Assembly: GCA_021821025.1 (NCBI GenBank)
Contig: JAKACY010000005.1
Span: forward strand, 1-32,917
Source: Bacillota bacterium
GTDB taxonomy: Bacteria; Bacillota; Bacilli; Alicyclobacillales; SLC66
Direction: 5' to 3'
Length of the DNA: 32,917 nucleotides
Below the pieces are notes generated by a model. The model ran no database searches. It was not told the origin of the DNA and saw only the letters and a program-made list of their open reading frames with translations. Shown here in pieces: positions 9,954 through 17,338 of this stretch. Within the stretch, counting starts at the first letter, position 1; each line of letters starts with the position of its first letter. The position numbers were made by a program, and so were the translations under genes.

Positions 9954-11234
9954 TCAGGTGCCATATGGTGATCGCTGCTTGCCAAAGGCAGTCATTCGAA
10001 ACATAAAGTGTACATCGATCTTGGCATTGCAAAACTTCTTTGTGTATTGAAATGCCTTCCAGTCCTGCTCCGTCAAAAACCACCATTTGAGAGAAGACAA
10101 GCCCAGCCCGAAAATATCGCCGTGAAATTCGGTCTGACAGCGCTTTATAAGCTCCTGCGCCTCATTTTCAAACTCTTTATCAAGCGCTCGTTCAAGAACA
10201 CGAGTATAACGGGCGGTTTGCACATAATCGATTTTGGCGTTGCTGCCAATAAGTGCGCAGCGCAGCGGAACCCTGATGATAAAGTGTAGCCGGCCACGAT
10301 CCAAGTGGCAAGAGATACGCGGAGGAAACGACTGTTCAACCGATACCGCATCGCTTGCCGCAGGTACGATCGGGTCCTGAATATTCTCCAAAAACCACCT
10401 GATCTGGTTCGTTAAAAGCAGATAGATTCGCACCTCTGCGCCCATCAGCCGCCCAACAGCATGCCCGCTGTTGTACACTTCCGCACCTGTAAATTCAATC
10501 TTGTTGTCACCCCCTTTAATCGGTGTCTGACCTGCCACCACCTCATCCGCCCTCGGTATCACTGATTGCTCATGTAACTCCTTGCGAGGGCCTATGATCG
10601 GCGTGATCGCAAGTTGGTCCCCCAATTCAATCGTTGTAAGAAAGTCATTTAAGGACGTGTTTGGCACCATGCCAGTATATCGGTATTGAAAACGCATGTT
10701 TTCTATCACTTGGTCGGGCGGCGTGGTAAACTTGCTGTCGATCATGGGAATCAATTTTTCCGCAGGTTCTATGCTCGTTACAAGCAGTAAGTCGCGGCGA
10801 TATTCGCGTTCACGAACCAACGCCTCGATCATCTCCGCCAGATCTTCACGTTTCACCAGTTCTTCATTCACGATTACGGCCTTTGTCTGCACGTTGGTCA
10901 ATATTCGATCGGAGTTGGCGTTGGCTATGGTTCTGGCAGCCCCAAACGATGGCGTCACAAACGTTTCATACATGCCTTTCGATCTGCCTCTGGATTGGCC
11001 AGCCTTTCCAGCTTCGGTAGCGGCATTGATGATTTCATACGTAATGCGCAAGTTCCTGCCAGGCGCGGGATCGATACCGACGATGCCGATGAAAGCCATA
11101 TCTTCAAGCTCGTGATTGTCTAAGCAGCCTGGCACCAAGAATATAGTGCACAATAAGAGCACAATAACTACCTTTCTCCTGATGCCACTGGCTATACTAA
11201 GCCTGGTTTTGTAACGCTTGACCCGTCTTACCAT
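9954..11234 (-). CDS. gerC: Spore germination receptor lipoprotein, GerC subunit
   Basis: Ger(x)C-family lipoprotein of about 426 aa, part of the nutrient germinant receptor in the inner spore membrane. The N-terminus is basic, followed by a hydrophobic segment and the lipobox LVPGC. The mature protein begins CLDNHELEDMAFIGIVGIDP, which is highly typical of GerC. The C-terminal domain (SLKWWFLTEQDWKAFQ region) is also recognisable. ATG 11234 follows GGAGG by ten bases. A start at 11267 is possible but lengthens the already long overlap with gerB. With the chosen start the two genes overlap by 38 bases, which suggests coupled translation. It is the third gene of the operon. Confidence 0.92.
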   Translation of the reverse strand: MVRRVKRYKTRLSIASGIRRKVVIVLLLCTIFLVPGCLDNHELEDMAFIGIVGIDPAPGRNLRITYEIINAATEAGKAGQSRGRSKGMYETFVTPSFGAARTIANANSDRILTNVQTKAVIVNEELVKREDLAEMIEALVREREYRRDLLLVTSIEPAEKLIPMIDSKFTTPPDQVIENMRFQYRYTGMVPNTSLNDFLTTIELGDQLAITPIIGPRKELHEQSVIPRADEVVAGQTPIKGGDNKIEFTGAEVYNSGHAVGRLMGAEVRIYLLLTNQIRWFLENIQDPIVPAASDAVSVEQSFPPRISCHLDRGRLHFIIRVPLRCALIGSNAKIDYVQTARYTRVLERALDKEFENEAQELIKRCQTEFHGDIFGLGLSSLKWWFLTEQDWKAFQYTKKFCNAKIDVHFMFRMTAFGKQRSPYGT

Positions 11235-12321
11235 TTCTCTTTTGCCTCCACTTCCGAATATAGGCAACTAATCCAAGTGCGAGTGGGATCGAAACATAAA
11301 GTAGAAACGATCTTTGCATCGACACGATATCCTTGAAACTCAGATCTGACATGATACTCGGCGGTATCAGCGATCCATAGAACGAAATGGCGCCCACAAC
11401 TGCTATAAACCTGCGATAGTTCGCTGTCCGTAATAACTCAGCACATAGTAGCGATGCCGCGAATATGAAGATATTTAACCGAATCAAGGACGATGCCACC
11501 CACGCGACGGCATATACGGCCTCTATATGCTGGATAAACCGGCCAAAATACACAATCTTGGCCGACTCAAGAAATGGGTACATGAGGTGATCAGAGGTGG
11601 GATATGGAATCACAAGATTAAAAACGAATAGCGCTAGGGCGATCCACAGTACTGATGCGATGTACCCAGTCAAAAAACTCCATCGAAATTCTCGATATGT
11701 GCGAAGGTATGGCCTGAATATGAAAAACAACAACATTTCCGCAAAAAAGCCGAGGTGCAGTACACCCTGTTGAAGCAAATTAGGAAGACCTGGCCCTAGC
11801 ACCGGCGGCATGTAGGAAAGATGGGCCCTCGTCAGCATAAAGAGTAGCAACGAAATAAGTGTGATAAATAGTAAAACGAACATGATCAAATTTGACCTTC
11901 CAAGGCCCTCAATGCCAAAGTAGACGGGCAGCGACATGGCCGCCACATATATCATTACAATGAGAATAGGAGAGGTCGTTGGCAAAAAGGCAACCTCAAT
12001 CTGATGAACGTCAAGACGAAGGGTTGTGCAAATATCTATCAACAGGGCTAAAAGCAGCAGCAGCCCTACGATACTGCCGATGACGTTGCCAAATTGTTCA
12101 AACAGGTGGTCAAACAAGCTCTTATCAGGTTGGCGAAAAAGCCACAGCATGGGAAGCACACATAAGAGCATCATCGCGCCTGATAGAAGTGCTAGTAAAT
12201 AAGCGGCGCCATGCCCCCAATGAATCAGGATATCGGCGCTGGGATCAAGTATCTTGCCAACCATAATCACCATACTGATGGCGAGCAAATGGACTCCGCT
12301 GATATGCCCTACCCTGATCAC
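11197..12321 (-). CDS. gerB: Spore germination receptor permease-like GerB subunit
   Basis: 374 aa integral membrane protein of the APC-type spore permease family. About ten hydrophobic segments are visible. They begin GVHLLAISMVIMVGKIL and end YVSIPLALGLVAYIRKW. In GerA-type receptors this subunit binds the germinant together with GerA and GerC in the spore inner membrane. The start is GTG 12321 with AGGGGTGA about five bases upstream, only four bases after the gerA stop. The tight packing gerA-gerB-gerC shows a single transcription unit. The particular germinant (amino acid, sugar or nucleoside) cannot be told from the sequence. Confidence 0.92.
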   Translation of the reverse strand: MIRVGHISGVHLLAISMVIMVGKILDPSADILIHWGHGAAYLLALLSGAMMLLCVLPMLWLFRQPDKSLFDHLFEQFGNVIGSIVGLLLLLALLIDICTTLRLDVHQIEVAFLPTTSPILIVMIYVAAMSLPVYFGIEGLGRSNLIMFVLLFITLISLLLFMLTRAHLSYMPPVLGPGLPNLLQQGVLHLGFFAEMLLFFIFRPYLRTYREFRWSFLTGYIASVLWIALALFVFNLVIPYPTSDHLMYPFLESAKIVYFGRFIQHIEAVYAVAWVASSLIRLNIFIFAASLLCAELLRTANYRRFIAVVGAISFYGSLIPPSIMSDLSFKDIVSMQRSFLLYVSIPLALGLVAYIRKWRQKRNGKTGQALQNQA

Positions 12322-12325
12322 ACAA

Positions 12326-14416
12326 TCACCCCTTTACAGAGTTTTTTTGCTTTCTCCACAGCCTGGGTTTTCTCCATGGTTTGGCCGATTGGCTGGATTG
12401 CTGGTATTCCTGTGAAACTGGTTGCTCGTTAGACACGGTCGATTGCTGCTGAGATTCTCCAGCCGACGCAGCCGCCATGAACGGCAACTTTTCACGCCAG
12501 TCGCCCGTCGTTGCACTTGACCCTTGACTTGACCCTTGCGAAGAGGCCTGTGGTGAATCACCATGCCAAGCGGTGGTGCCAGGTAATGAGACTTCCGGTT
12601 TTAGTCGCATTCTATCACTAAGCTGTACCTCTTTATTCTTTGTGGGCAGCGCATGTACCGAGGCCGGAAAATACTTGTACTTTGTAACAGAGCTTCTCAT
12701 GAGGCCCTCTTCTTTCGGTCGGTATGGCGTGATGGGCGTCAAATACGGTACGCCAAACGACTGCATGATCGACAAGTACCAGACCATTAAACTAAGGAAC
12801 ACAGCGATGCCAAAGAATCCCAAGAGAAAGCTGGCAAAAGTGAAGAAAAATCTCAGGATCCTTGCGGCAAACCCAATTTCTTGATTCGGAATAGCAAATG
12901 AACCTAGCCCCGTCACGGAAATCAGAATGACGATGGTCGGACTCACCAGATTTGCCTCGACGGCAGCCTGTCCCAAGATGAGTGCGCCAACGATACCGAT
13001 CGTCGATCCGATCACGTGCGGAACGCGGATGCTCGCCTCACGAATCAGTTCAAACGCGATATCAAGGATCAAGATCTCAATCACGGTAGGAAACGGAATG
13101 TTGAGCCGAGATGCCTTGATCGCAAGAAGAAGTGGCGACGGAAGCATCTCATGTTGAAAGTTCACCAAACCGATGTAAATAGATGGCAGCAAAATCGCCA
13201 CGAAGAGTGCGATTACACGAATGATCCTCAGAAAATTTGCGTACCAAACTCGCTGATACAAGTCTTCAGCCGTGATGAGTTGCATCCACAAAGTAGCAGG
13301 TACGATGAGCACTTGCGAGTGATTATCAACGACAAGAGACACATACCCACGCAAAAGATAGCGAGCTACAAGGTCCGGACGTTCGGTATATATGGTCGTT
13401 GGAAATAAGGATCTGGAATGATCTTCGATATATTGCACCACGAGCCCCGAGGCATTGAGTGGAACCCGACCGATATTTTGCAATCTACGATTCACTTCGG
13501 CCAGAATACGCGGATTCGCATACTCAGCAACTGATACGACGCAGATTCTGGTATTTGCCGTATCCTGCAAAGTGATTTCCGCGAATGTGAGGTCAGGTCG
13601 TGGTACCACCCGGCGCAAGATCGAGAGGTTCGTTTCCATCTTCTCCGCAAATGCTTCCTGCGGACCGCGAACGACAGACTCGTTCATCGTCGTGGACACA
13701 GCGCGGGACTGCAGCTTGGTCACTGAGCAAATAAACGCACGCAAGCCACCGATGAGAAGCACTACCTTGCCAGTGATCACTGCCCGCGCCAAGTTGGACG
13801 GATGGTCGTCAAAAGTAAAGTCGCTGCAAGGCAAGCGGCGCGCCAACACCTCCACATCGGGGAGCGGTTCCTCAATCTCCGATAGCGGCCTCAGCACGAG
13901 ATCCTGCAGCGAAGTTTCGTCACAAGTGACTGATGAATGCACGACGACTACCCTTTGGCCCAACATTGTAAAATGGTCCCTGAATAAGATATCCATATTG
14001 ACCGACGCATTGAGCAGTCCGCGAAGGACCTTCTCCTGTTCTGTCAATTCAATCGCGAGAACATCGTCTGCCGGGTCGGATTTTTGGCCGACTGCATGGC
14101 TGTCTTTTACTCCCTCTTCGCCAATCTTTGCACGTCGGCGCTCCCAAACGCTGAGTTGTTCTGTCAAGGGCTCATTTTTTTCACCTACACCTCGCGACTG
14201 AATTGGTTCGCCACTTGCCTGCACATTCGGTGGCTGTTGGCTCGTCGAGCGTTCAATCTGATCGGGTTGGCCACTTGCTTTCTGCTTCTCGGCGCTTTCG
14301 GGAATCATCCCCTCGCGCCCTTGCGCGGACGGACTGAGACTAAACCGGCCGCGATAAGGCGGCGTTCCCTCTGATATTTGAACAATCCAGTCGTAGAGCT
14401 TTCGCACCGTCGACAC
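12326..14416 (-). CDS. gerA: Spore germination receptor GerA subunit with long N- and C-terminal extensions
   Basis: GerA-family subunit of the germinant receptor, 696 aa from GTG 14416, against about 480-540 for most members. The conserved soluble part starts near residue 125 (LTEQEKVLRGLLNASVNMDI). The membrane part carries LPSIYIGLVNFQHEMLPSPL and IGIVGALILGQAAVEANLVS. The first 120 residues or so are polar and rich in Gln, Glu and Ser. The last 110 or so are likewise polar, with SSQG repeats, an ESQQQS stretch and a basic end. GTG 14416 is chosen over GTG 14425 because GAGGTGA lies five bases before it. It is the first gene of the operon, presumably expressed in the forespore. No clear sigma-G promoter was found. 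Confidence 0.92.
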   Translation of the reverse strand: MSTVRKLYDWIVQISEGTPPYRGRFSLSPSAQGREGMIPESAEKQKASGQPDQIERSTSQQPPNVQASGEPIQSRGVGEKNEPLTEQLSVWERRRAKIGEEGVKDSHAVGQKSDPADDVLAIELTEQEKVLRGLLNASVNMDILFRDHFTMLGQRVVVVHSSVTCDETSLQDLVLRPLSEIEEPLPDVEVLARRLPCSDFTFDDHPSNLARAVITGKVVLLIGGLRAFICSVTKLQSRAVSTTMNESVVRGPQEAFAEKMETNLSILRRVVPRPDLTFAEITLQDTANTRICVVSVAEYANPRILAEVNRRLQNIGRVPLNASGLVVQYIEDHSRSLFPTTIYTERPDLVARYLLRGYVSLVVDNHSQVLIVPATLWMQLITAEDLYQRVWYANFLRIIRVIALFVAILLPSIYIGLVNFQHEMLPSPLLLAIKASRLNIPFPTVIEILILDIAFELIREASIRVPHVIGSTIGIVGALILGQAAVEANLVSPTIVILISVTGLGSFAIPNQEIGFAARILRFFFTFASFLLGFFGIAVFLSLMVWYLSIMQSFGVPYLTPITPYRPKEEGLMRSSVTKYKYFPASVHALPTKNKEVQLSDRMRLKPEVSLPGTTAWHGDSPQASSQGSSQGSSATTGDWREKLPFMAAASAGESQQQSTVSNEQPVSQEYQQSSQSAKPWRKPRLWRKQKNSVKG
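12515..12538. repeat. 12-bp tandem duplication in the gerA tail
   Basis: ACTTGACCCTTG occurs twice in direct succession (12515-12526 and 12527-12538). It encodes the SSQG repeats of the GerA C-terminal tail. It keeps the frame and could vary in copy number by slippage. Confidence 0.7.
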
Positions 14417-14497
14417 AGCCCTCACCTCATTTTGCTAATTTACCCGCTGTATGCCATCACTATGTAAATTCACGTCTACGCACAAAGGGTTATACGC

Positions 14498-14704
14498 CTA
14501 CGCAAAAAGATGACGGCCAACCCCGATAAACTCCTGGGTCCTATCGCCAATAGTCCACGGTGCATTTTCAACCAAATGTACAAATACAAATCCACTTCTT
14601 GGTTCCAGACAGATCAGACCTTCGATTCTGTAGTTCAGGGTCACTGCAGCAAAAAAGCCGGTCAGAATCAACCGATTCCAACCGACTTTTTCGTTAAAAT
14701 ACAT
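14498..14704 (-). pseudogene. Possible GNAT-like protein fragment behind the toxin gene
   Basis: From ATG 14704, which overlaps the 3' end of the toxin gene, a 68-codon frame reads MYFNEKVGWNRLILTGFFAA, then EGLICLEPRSGFVFVHLVEN, APWTIGDRTQEFIGVGRHLFA and stops. The pattern LVENAPWxIG...GVGxxLFA resembles the middle of GNAT-type acetyltransferase domains, where further helices and strands should follow. The frame instead stops at TAG, so the product would be truncated. I infer a decayed fragment. An intact small protein coupled to the toxin is the alternative. Family assignment is tentative. Confidence 0.4.
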
Positions 14705-15041
14705 CCTTGCACTTTTGTATAACCCGCTGCAAGTCGAAGAAATGTAGTTCTCCGAGTTGCCGTTGCAATTGATCCATACTGACCGAAAATAGCTTAGATG
14801 TTCTTGCCACAGATGGCTTTGACAACCCGGCTTCCTTCCAATACTCGATAATGACATCAAATTCCGATCTAGGCTGTTGGCTTGAAACCGAAATCGCCAC
14901 TACATCGATGTCTGTGGCGCGATCATTGGAAACGATGACTATCGGACGCACTTTTCTTGTCGACGGGTCGTCCCGAAAAGTTACGGCGGTCAGGTAAACT
15001 TCTCCCTGTTTGGGTTTCTCGTTCGGCATAAAGCTCGTCAT
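14694..15041 (-). CDS. PemK/MazF-family toxin (type II toxin-antitoxin)
   Basis: 115 aa, the usual size for MazF/PemK-type mRNA endonucleases. The N-terminal strand KQGEVYLTAVTF and the motif KVRPIVIVSND (about residues 30-40) match the conserved KxGDI...RPxxVxS pattern. The later block AGLSKPSVARTSKLFSVS and the C-terminal LQRVIQKCKDVF are also characteristic. ATG 15041 is preferred: GAGG lies nine bases upstream. In-frame ATGs at 15050 and 15029 and a start at 15074 are possible. The start lies well inside the upstream small gene, in another frame. Type II toxins of this fold cut RNA and are held inactive by the antitoxin encoded just before them. Confidence 0.8.
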   Translation of the reverse strand: MTSFMPNEKPKQGEVYLTAVTFRDDPSTRKVRPIVIVSNDRATDIDVVAISVSSQQPRSEFDVIIEYWKEAGLSKPSVARTSKLFSVSMDQLQRQLGELHFFDLQRVIQKCKDVF

Positions 15042-15144
15042 AAATGTCATCCTCTTCGTTGAGCCAAAAGTCAAACGACGGGCCCAGTACGATAAGTTTA
15101 TCTTCGTCGAATCGCACTTTTTGCTCCCCTTGTTTGTTGTTCAT
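14923..15144 (-). CDS. Probable antitoxin of the PemK/MazF pair
   Basis: 73 aa, acidic in its middle. The sequence KVRFDEDKLIVLGPSFDFWL and then NEEDDIYDELYAE resembles small antitoxins that precede PemK-like genes, in which a DFW...DDxY/W motif forms the toxin-binding tail. ATG 15144 follows GGAGGGT. Antitoxins of this kind usually end soon after that acidic motif. Here the frame runs on for 29 more codons inside the toxin gene (119-base overlap), giving a basic tail. Either the original stop was lost or the long tail is functional. Confidence 0.6.
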   Translation of the reverse strand: MNNKQGEQKVRFDEDKLIVLGPSFDFWLNEEDDIYDELYAERETQTGRSLPDRRNFSGRPVDKKSASDSHRFQ

Positions 15145-15369: not shown

Positions 15370-15765
15370 ATGGGAAAGCGTGTGGCGATCATTGCATCTC
15401 ACGGTGGAGTAGAGACGGCGTACAAGGTAATGAACATTGCAATGGCCGCAACCGCGACAGATGCACAGGTGGGAATTTTCTTCACTTTTGATGGGTTGGA
15501 CATTATCCGGAATAATGCTTCTGAATTACTGTCTTTTGCATCTGGGAAGGAACACTACGCAGAAGGTTTTAAAAAGGCAAATGTGCCACCTGTTGAACAG
15601 ATGATACAAATGGCCGTGGAAAGCGGTGTGCGGTTGATTGCCTGTCAGATGACCATGGATGTGATGGGATTGACCAAACAAGATTTCCTTGACGAAGTGG
15701 AAGTCGCGGGTGCTATGACCTTCCTGGATTTCGCGTATGATGCAGACATTACGCTAACATTTTAG
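15370..15765 (+). CDS. DsrE-like sulfur carrier protein
   Basis: 131 aa. DsrE/DsrF-like fold, with the N-terminal strand RVAIIASHGGVETAYKVMNI and the conserved block LIACQMTMDVMGLTKQDFL. Cys92 in that block is the single conserved cysteine of the DsrE3-type family, which can carry persulfide sulfur. ATG 15370 follows AAAGGAGAA by about seven bases; an upstream start at 15307 lacks this and adds no conserved sequence. It precedes a TusA-rhodanese fusion. In sulfur-oxidising bacteria and archaea rhd-tusA-dsrE genes occur together and pass sulfane sulfur between cysteines. Cytoplasmic location is expected. Confidence 0.85.
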   Translation: MGKRVAIIASHGGVETAYKVMNIAMAATATDAQVGIFFTFDGLDIIRNNASELLSFASGKEHYAEGFKKANVPPVEQMIQMAVESGVRLIACQMTMDVMGLTKQDFLDEVEVAGAMTFLDFAYDADITLTF

Positions 15766-15811: not shown

Positions 15812-16402
15812 ATGAAGGCTTACGTGTTAGAACAAGTCGATAAACGTGTGGATTGCAGGGGTTTGTCGTGTCCGATGCCGATTGTTAAGACCAAACGGGC
15901 GATAGACGAGATTCAGCCTGGCCAGGTGCTTGAAGTTTCTGCTACAGATCCCGGTTCCGTAGCTGATGTGAAAAGTTGGGCCCAGCGAACTGGTCATCAA
16001 TTTTTGGGCACGATAGAAGAAGCGGGATTGTTTAAGCACTATATTCGGCGAGCTGATCTAAGCGATGTTAAGGAAATGAAAAAGCATCCACATACTGTTT
16101 CACATAAGCATCTGCTGCAGAAATTGAGCGAAAAACCGTTGATCCTGGATGTACGGGAACCAATGGAATATTCGTTTGGGCATATTCCTGGCGCAAAATC
16201 CATCGCGCTTGGTAAAATCAGAGACTGGATTGCCGAACTTAAAGAGCCGTCACACGCAGAGATTTACGTGGTGTGTCAAACAGGAAACCGCAGCGATATG
16301 GCTTGCCAAATTTTACATGAGCACGGGTTTTCTCGAGTATTTAACGTAATTGAAGGAATGCAAAACTGGCAAGGCCCTATCGAAAAAAACGTCGCCCTAT
16401 AA
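15812..16402 (+). CDS. TusA-rhodanese fusion sulfurtransferase
   Basis: 196 aa, two domains. Residues about 10-80 are TusA-like, with DCRGLSCPMPIVKTK and Cys20 in the CPxP motif. Residues about 98-190 are a rhodanese domain, with LILDVREPMEYSFGHIPGA and the active loop CQTGNRS (Cys155). Both catalytic cysteines are present, so sulfur could be transferred within one polypeptide. ATG 15812 follows GGTGGAGG. It is 46 bases after the DsrE-like gene. The architecture recalls part of CstA of the staphylococcal persulfide-detoxification operon and the Rhd/TusA pairs of sulfur oxidisers. A hairpin after the gene closes the unit. Confidence 0.9.
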   Translation: MKAYVLEQVDKRVDCRGLSCPMPIVKTKRAIDEIQPGQVLEVSATDPGSVADVKSWAQRTGHQFLGTIEEAGLFKHYIRRADLSDVKEMKKHPHTVSHKHLLQKLSEKPLILDVREPMEYSFGHIPGAKSIALGKIRDWIAELKEPSHAEIYVVCQTGNRSDMACQILHEHGFSRVFNVIEGMQNWQGPIEKNVAL

Positions 16403-16432: not shown

Positions 16433-16471
16433 AACCCTGTGTAAAGCGCGGCACATTCTTTGCACAGGGTT
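16433..16471 (+). terminator. Terminator after the DsrE/TusA-rhodanese unit
   Basis: A 14-bp stem (16433-16446 with 16458-16471) contains one G-T pair and an 11-base loop. It lies 30 bases after the fusion gene, and a T-run follows a few bases later (16484-16489). It probably ends the two-gene message. Confidence 0.7.
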
Positions 16472-16486
16472 TCTTGAACGATATTT

Positions 16487-16528
16487 TTTGCCCTTTTATA
16501 TACCCATGCAGGTATATAAAAGGGCAAA
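16487..16528 (+). promoter_or_regulatory. Perfect 18-bp palindrome before the TSUP gene (operator candidate)
   Basis: Arms 16487-16504 and 16511-16528 are perfectly complementary with a 6-base centre. The inner part TACC-CATGCA-GGTA, flanked by AT-rich TATA arms, resembles CsoR/CstR-type operators (TACCC...GGGTA). TATATA inside the right arm (16513-16518) could be the -10 element and TTGCCC (16488-16493) the -35, so a bound protein would block the promoter. The ATG of the permease gene lies 19 bases after the palindrome. It may alternatively act as a hairpin in the 5' leader. Confidence 0.55.
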
Positions 16529-16546
16529 GGAAAAGGTGGTTATAGC

Positions 16547-17338
16547 ATGCCTCATCTGACAATTTTGCAGTCTATCTTATCTGTCTTCTCTGGAGGTATT
16601 GTCGGCTTTAGTCTCGGACTGATTGGCGGGGGCGGGTCGATCCTTGCCGTTCCCTTGCTGTTGTATGTTGTGGGGCTTCGCGACCCCCATGTCGTGATTG
16701 GCAGCACAGCATTGGCGGTGTCCGTCAATGCCTTTATGAACCTGATACCTCATTGGCGCAGGGGAAATGTTCGTTGGAAAGCCGCAATCTTGTTTGCCAT
16801 GCCAGGTGCTATCGGTGCTTATGTGGGATCCATTTTTGGGAAAATGGTCAATGACAACGCAATCTTATTTCTTTTTGCATTGTTGATGATTATAATTGCA
16901 ATGCTCATGCTGAGACCGGCTAAAAAAGGCAGTGAAGCTACGCGCTCAATCGCGGTCAAGCCTGTGCGCGTTGTTTCGTCCGGATTCTCTACAGGAGCCA
17001 TTTCAGGGTTCTTCGGTATCGGAGGAGGATTTTTGATTGTTCCTGGACTGGTCTTTTCGACCGGCATGGGCATGATCGAAGCCATTGGCACCTCACTGTT
17101 TTCTGTAGGCACGTTTGGCCTTACGACAGCTGTATCATATGCCGTTTCAGGGCTTGTCGACTGGTACGTAGTTATGCTATATGTTGTCGGAGGCTTGGTG
17201 GGTGGATTACTTGGCGTTCGGTTGGCCACAAGGTTGTCTAAGACAAAACGGCTCTTGCAGATCGTCTTTTCCACGATTATTATCCTTGTGGCCTGCTACA
17301 TGCTGTACAAAAACCTGTCGGTGTTCCACCTTCTTTAA
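16547..17338 (+). CDS. TSUP/TauE-SafE-family sulfur-compound permease
   Basis: 263 aa, about eight predicted membrane helices in two repeats. Each repeat carries a glycine-rich signature: GLIGGGGSILAVPLLL (about residues 25-40) and GFFGIGGGFLIVPGLV (about 158-173). TSUP proteins move sulfite, sulfonates or other small sulfur anions. Placement beside DsrE-like and TusA-rhodanese genes suggests export of sulfite or thiosulfate made during persulfide handling. ATG 16547 follows AAAGGTGG. It appears to have its own promoter within or next to the 18-bp palindrome. It is convergent with the sugar operon that ends at 17403. Confidence 0.88.
   Translation: MPHLTILQSILSVFSGGIVGFSLGLIGGGGSILAVPLLLYVVGLRDPHVVIGSTALAVSVNAFMNLIPHWRRGNVRWKAAILFAMPGAIGAYVGSIFGKMVNDNAILFLFALLMIIIAMLMLRPAKKGSEATRSIAVKPVRVVSSGFSTGAISGFFGIGGGFLIVPGLVFSTGMGMIEAIGTSLFSVGTFGLTTAVSYAVSGLVDWYVVMLYVVGGLVGGLLGVRLATRLSKTKRLLQIVFSTIIILVACYMLYKNLSVFHLL

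Follow-up and report, generated by a model that had tools for sequence, protein, structure and literature searches.

The locus

The stretch of DNA analysed here (the window) is 32,917 nucleotides long and belongs to an Alicyclobacillales MAG of 2.5 Mb that is 81% complete. On its plus strand lie a gene for a DsrE/DsrF-family sulfur carrier (15370–15765; PF13686 and PF02635), a gene for a TusA-rhodanese fusion (15812–16402; PF01206 and PF00581) and, downstream of the latter, the target gene of this study, which encodes a TSUP/TauE-family sulfur-anion permease of 263 amino acids (16547–17338; Pfam PF01925, TauE/SafE family, E = 6.8e-53). Repeat search and folding revealed a hairpin 3' of the TusA-rhodanese gene (16433–16471, plus strand), which is a probable transcript end or processing signal. 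Its T-run begins only ~10 bases past the stem and none follows directly, so that it is no textbook terminator. Similar hairpins with different letters occur upstream of the TSUP gene at two related loci (L006 and L007). On the minus strand, the window also encodes a PemK/MazF-like protein (14694–15074; PF02452, E = 2.5e-11). A short open frame closely precedes its gene, and the two may form a toxin-antitoxin pair. The same strand carries a spore germination receptor set with GerA-, permease- and GerC-type genes (9954–14425), consistent with a spore-former.

In front of the permease gene lies a perfect palindrome (16487–16528, assigned to neither strand) with the 6-nt centre CATGCA. A preliminary description of this DNA had reported perfect 18-bp arms at 16487–16504 and 16511–16528, and a repeat search of the window returned the same 18-nt arms, 100% complementary. 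For a window of this size, chance predicts only ~1e-5 pairs of perfect 18-bp arms around a loop of at most 20 bases. The palindrome had rightly been placed before the TSUP gene, but its end is 18 bases from the ATG at 16547, not 19. Its middle (16500–16515, likewise without strand) reads ATACC-CATGCA-GGTAT, a candidate CstR-type operator core recognised by its published form, its copies in the genome and the alignment of TSUP upstream regions; the operator consensus does not reach the outermost ~10 bp on either side. The core is the sole match in the window at 0 or 1 mismatch. The other 11 core-like matches in the window have 2 mismatches each, which is the chance level; the search for further operators, such as one upstream of dsrE, gave nothing above chance in the window, and no exact copy precedes dsrE.

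A possible promoter can be read from the sequence on the plus strand (16474–16502), consisting of TTGAAC (16474–16479), a 17-bp spacer and TATATA (16497–16502). It overlaps the left half of the operator, as had been suggested earlier, but the promoter itself stays putative because it matches 8 of the 12 consensus positions and is absent from the promoter-scan output. A likely ribosome-binding site, AAGGTGG, follows at 16533–16539 (plus strand). A run of T followed by GC stands 8 bp before ATACC (16484–16491, plus strand), and similar T-runs at similar spacing occur in the TSUP operators of several genera. Many of these operators have 5–8 T and then GC (or AC), 7–8 bp before ATACC (L006, L007, L008, L017, L104, L107, L109 and L110), without a consistent -35 box. 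The T-run has the look of an additional, conserved part of TSUP operators.

Operator copies and CsoR-family regulators in the genome

The 42-bp palindrome is single-copy in its own genome, which rules out the end of a repeat or mobile element. Its 16-bp core does recur. The pattern ATACC-N6-GGTAT has seven sites in the genome, compared to none for the reversed control pattern, and five of the seven precede sulfur genes. One of these heads a cluster of genes for a rhodanese, a thioredoxin-like protein, a second rhodanese and a CsoR-family regulator (C110:3353). Another lies 51 bp upstream of a gene for a CoA-disulfide-reductase-rhodanese fusion (C110:5211), a CoA-persulfide-reductase-like protein whose solved relatives include the CoA-disulfide reductase 3icr and the CoA-persulfide reductase 8a56. 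The others stand before a single rhodanese gene (C88:510), before the TSUP gene of the window (TSUP1) and before a second TSUP gene (TSUP2; C50:4321). The remaining two sites, one within an apparent IclR-type regulator gene (C244:4553) and one without a nearby sulfur gene (C47:2773), are probably due to chance. The thioredoxin-like gene of the C110 cluster (L093, 2265–2912) is apparently split by a frame change, and what seem to be longer relatives lie, for instance, beside the site in L236 or L241.

Two arrangements of operator and promoter were found. At C110:3353 and C88:510, the operator makes up the 16 bp that separate TTGACT from TATAAT, while the operators of both TSUP genes overlap the -10 element and the probable start. 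The promoter of TSUP2 is TTGACA-17-TATGAT. The TSUP2 site carries less weight, because its permease is 99% identical at the protein level to a Ferroacidibacillus TSUP and its contig (L095) is nearly identical to Ferroacidibacillus DNA; the contig may be a recent transfer or may have been mis-binned. Transposase-type genes flank TSUP2 and its operator, and a convergent multicopper-oxidase-like gene lies beyond TSUP2.

The CsoR-family protein anticipated in the preliminary description is present; the genome encodes two, on contigs C110 and C253, and further members may be missing from the assembly because the MAG is 81% complete. The gene on C110 (1058–1345, minus strand; PF02583, E = 1.2e-23) adjoins the rhodanese genes, and its product is CstR-like. 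It belongs to the CsoR/RcnR (DUF156) fold family, and its PDB relatives are nearly all of the CsoR/FrmR/InrS type; it falls below every curated NCBIfam cut-off and was called by no NCBIfam model. The best solved relative, with which it shares a cysteine pair, is 7mq1, an entry titled CsoR that we take to be pneumococcal CstR. In the alignment, C40 and C69 fall on the cysteine positions of 7mq1 and relatives, and they are the equivalents of C31 and C60 of the Staphylococcus aureus protein. The dithiol that had been predicted is thus there, but its description as a CxxC motif was wrong, because the two cysteines stand 29 residues apart. At the position of the copper-ligand histidine, four residues before the second cysteine, the protein has Asn65. 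The resulting C-N-C set does not make the Cys-His-Cys copper site, and 39 of the 43 aligned CstR-like sequences likewise have C/N/C as sensor residues.

The C253 protein, by comparison, has the Cys-His-Cys site of the copper type. Its best match is 4m1p, titled CsoR and presumably the Geobacillus CsoR, and its gene is closely followed by that of a CopA-like ATPase. The operator before TSUP1 might belong to this copper-type CsoR, since operators within the CsoR family resemble one another, and the permease would then answer to copper. However, the promoter of the C253 csoR gene carries another, G-rich element (TTGACACTTGGGGTGGGGGGGTATAGTAT) without ATACC-N6-GGTAT, and none of the seven sites precedes copper-efflux genes. 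Nor is there an excess of sites in the four near-complete relatives whose CsoR matches are all weaker and copper-type-like. Control by copper is therefore very improbable, and the different promoter element together with the lack of target overlap led us to reject copper CsoR as the regulator.

Conservation across the Alicyclobacillales

The comparison of sites and control matches covered 41 genomes of the order. In the 35 genomes with a CstR-like gene, 169 sites were found against 48 control matches. The four near-complete genomes without a CstR-like gene, which are those with only the weaker, copper-type-like CsoR matches, had no excess (7 sites against 8 control matches). Rhodanese, TSUP, CstR, CoA-reductase, thioredoxin or DsrE genes adjoin 84 of the 131 distinct sites, a count that has no matched random sites as comparison and is a lower bound for the regulon, because the references were the window genome's own proteins only.

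The core precedes TSUP orthologues in Alicyclobacillus tolerans, Alicyclobacillus sp. ALC3, A. fastidiosus, A. sendaiensis, Ferroacidibacillus and others, and is missing before some orthologues (L010, L012–L014 and L016). When seven TSUP upstream regions were aligned, only ATACC, GGTAT and a few Ts were invariant, so that the half-sites form the main invariant block. Conservation of the palindrome before TSUP genes of relatives thus holds for the 16-bp core, though not in all of them, and does not extend to the 18-bp arms. Relatives also carry the core before rhodanese, CoA-persulfide-reductase-like, DsrE, thioredoxin and cstR genes. The order DsrE, TusA-rhodanese, site, TSUP is preserved at three loci (L006, L007 and L099). 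In several genera the regulator gene follows the TSUP gene (L008, L009, L017, L023, L104, L107, L108, L109 and L110). At three loci, two operator cores stand head to tail with zero gap before DsrE or rhodanese-type genes (L268, 2432–2463; L238, 2001–2032; L246, 2001–2032), possibly accommodating two repressor assemblies.

A chance palindrome without regulatory role would be in keeping with the reversed-pattern control, which predicts ~1 site per genome, and with the two sites of the window genome that look like chance (C47 and C244). The conservation, the target genes, the co-occurrence with CstR and the arm length all contradict this explanation, to which we assign a negligible probability.

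The long outer arms

In the symmetrised consensus of 84 sites, information is confined to the core and ~3 bp on either side of it (TATATACCC...GGGTATATA). The arms in the window are the longest of the 131 sites examined, and the extrapolated chance of arms of at least 18 bp with random flanks is ~1.5e-7 per operator. The ~10 outermost bp on either side are not a product of chance. The next-longest arms, of 16 bp, also precede a TSUP gene (L248, the same locus as L023, of A. sendaiensis), and in the genus of A. sendaiensis long GC-rich arms are kept upstream of TSUP, often with a spacer of 12. In relatives, the degenerate operator before TSUP is enclosed by a very long but broken dyad at three loci (L116, L122 and L123), reading GAACGCCATTTTAT ... 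ATAAGATGGCGTTC in L122 and L123.

One explanation is that the outer arms are a mutational by-product, in which template switching perfected an imperfect dyad without adding a function. Such a correction fits because the left outer arm TTTTTTGCC, with its T-run and GC, matches relatives, whereas nothing in the aligned relatives corresponds to the right outer arm, which is a mirror image of the left. It is also in line with the operator-consensus information, which stops ~3 bp outside the core, and with the occurrence of long arms with different letters in separate lineages (L248 and L110). The persistence of long arms across several species of an A. acidocaldarius-like genus (g10) speaks against it, and we give this explanation even odds. 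It bears on the outer arms alone and agrees with a CstR operator in the centre.

Alternatively, the TSUP operator might have been built out into a long dyad that provides a second control layer on top of CstR binding, which we consider unlikely. It is similarly doubtful that, as part of such a development, the long dyad arose separately in the window species and in the A. acidocaldarius-like genus. The nature of the second layer, whether an extended repressor contact, a cruciform or a read-through RNA hairpin, possibly with the T-run, is a tentative suggestion of no greater likelihood.

The palindrome might also act mainly as an RNA hairpin in read-through from the TusA-rhodanese operon, where it would affect processing, stability or attenuation, and its likeness to an operator would be secondary. 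The two hairpins together give a very stable fold (z = -8.4). In g10, the TSUP upstream regions retain long arms (CCCGGATCAATACC/GGTATTGATCCGGG) with one compensatory pair (A-T to C-G), and at L118, L120 and L121 the arms are kept despite a half-site spacer of ~12 instead of 6. Yet, the stem has no T-run on either strand, with GGAAAAGG after the right arm and AAATATC on the other strand, which excludes an intrinsic terminator. Moreover, the putative promoter, if used, would yield a transcript without the left arm, arms are short at most TSUP operators of other genera, and unrelated sulfur genes are also preceded by the core. As a class, TSUP sites fold no better than other operators (p = 0.17); a tendency to stronger hairpins came from few loci, and we rejected it as a class property. 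We therefore consider a primary role as RNA hairpin improbable.

A predicted persulfide switch

We conclude that the centre of the palindrome is very probably (about 92%) the operator of the CstR-type repressor, a CsoR-family protein with a dithiol, that is encoded on C110. The resemblance to CsoR/CstR operators noted in the preliminary description was borne out, as ATACC-N6-GGTAT is the published ScCsoR form and recurs before sulfur genes. The proposal that TauE permease and TusA/rhodanese genes are CstR targets likewise agrees with the sites before TSUP and rhodanese genes. At the level of sequence, CstR-type control of the permease is well supported, and C110 CstR would control sulfurtransferase, persulfide-handling and TauE genes, as judged by operator position only. 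The cstR gene is not adjacent to the TSUP gene in the window, which counts against such control. The extra 10 bp of each arm are dispensable for it.

Reduced CstR would bind ATACC-N6-GGTAT over the -10 region and the probable start of the TSUP gene, and thereby block its transcription. A rise in persulfides or polysulfides would lead to cross-linking or persulfidation of C40 and C69 on adjacent subunits, and the modified CstR would leave the DNA. The permease would then be made together with the rhodaneses, the CoA-persulfide-reductase-like enzyme and CstR itself. Possibly, excess sulfane sulfur is then transferred and reduced, and oxidised products are exported by the permease.

Our results extend predicted CstR-type persulfide control to the acidophilic Alicyclobacillales, with a likely regulon of TSUP permeases, rhodaneses, the CoA-persulfide-reductase-like enzyme, DsrE, thioredoxins and CstR. 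A literature search limited to open-licence papers found no publication on CstR in Alicyclobacillus.

Comparison with known systems

The proposed switch is of a known kind, given the precedents of ScCsoR, S. aureus CstR, E. faecalis CstR and YrkD; the basic mechanism is already known and the bacterial group is new. In S. aureus, CstR is likewise a dithiol persulfide sensor of the CsoR family; it represses tauE, which is derepressed in a cstR mutant (PMC5480029). S. aureus has apparently one CstR operon (PMC5480029), whereas the sites in the window genome are spread over several transcription units. In Enterococcus faecalis, the parts of the published account drawn on here describe CstR control of a CoA-persulfide reductase, a CoA-disulfide-reductase-rhodanese fusion as in our genome, and of rhodaneses, but name no TSUP permease in the regulon (PMC9405070).

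TTHA1953 of Thermus thermophilus also belongs to the CsoR family and represses sulfur genes through a TAC/GTA dyad operator (PMC10318464). It differs in the operator itself (TACNNTACNNNNGTANNGTA), in controlling Sox genes and in not responding to NaHS (PMC10318464). YrkD of Bacillus licheniformis, from a spore-forming genus, is a CstR-like repressor that senses sulfane sulfur, and its cluster contains TusA, DsrE and rhodanese-like genes (PMC9918477). In contrast to our genome, the B. licheniformis arrangement is a single cluster of 11 genes, together with a second system, a two-component one that senses sulfide (PMC9918477). The suggestion of persulfide-responsive control in a non-staphylococcal spore-former is thus supported as to CstR-type control, but it is not new, because YrkD had already been published (PMC9918477).

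The CstR-like ScCsoR of Streptomyces coelicolor, a sensor of sulfane sulfur, binds ATACCn6GGTAT before the genes for a persulfide dioxygenase, a rhodanese, TauE and ScCsoR itself, and hydrogen polysulfide weakens this binding (PMC7533328). The two systems share an identical 16-bp operator form, a two-cysteine CsoR-family regulator, and targets that include the TauE permease, a rhodanese and the regulator. They differ in that S. coelicolor is an actinobacterium with a persulfide dioxygenase among the targets, while in the window genome the regulator is not beside the permease and the palindrome is far longer. Our results support ATACC-N6-GGTAT as an operator common to the CstR-type regulators of actinobacteria and Alicyclobacillales, and genomes can be searched for persulfide-stress genes with this simple motif.
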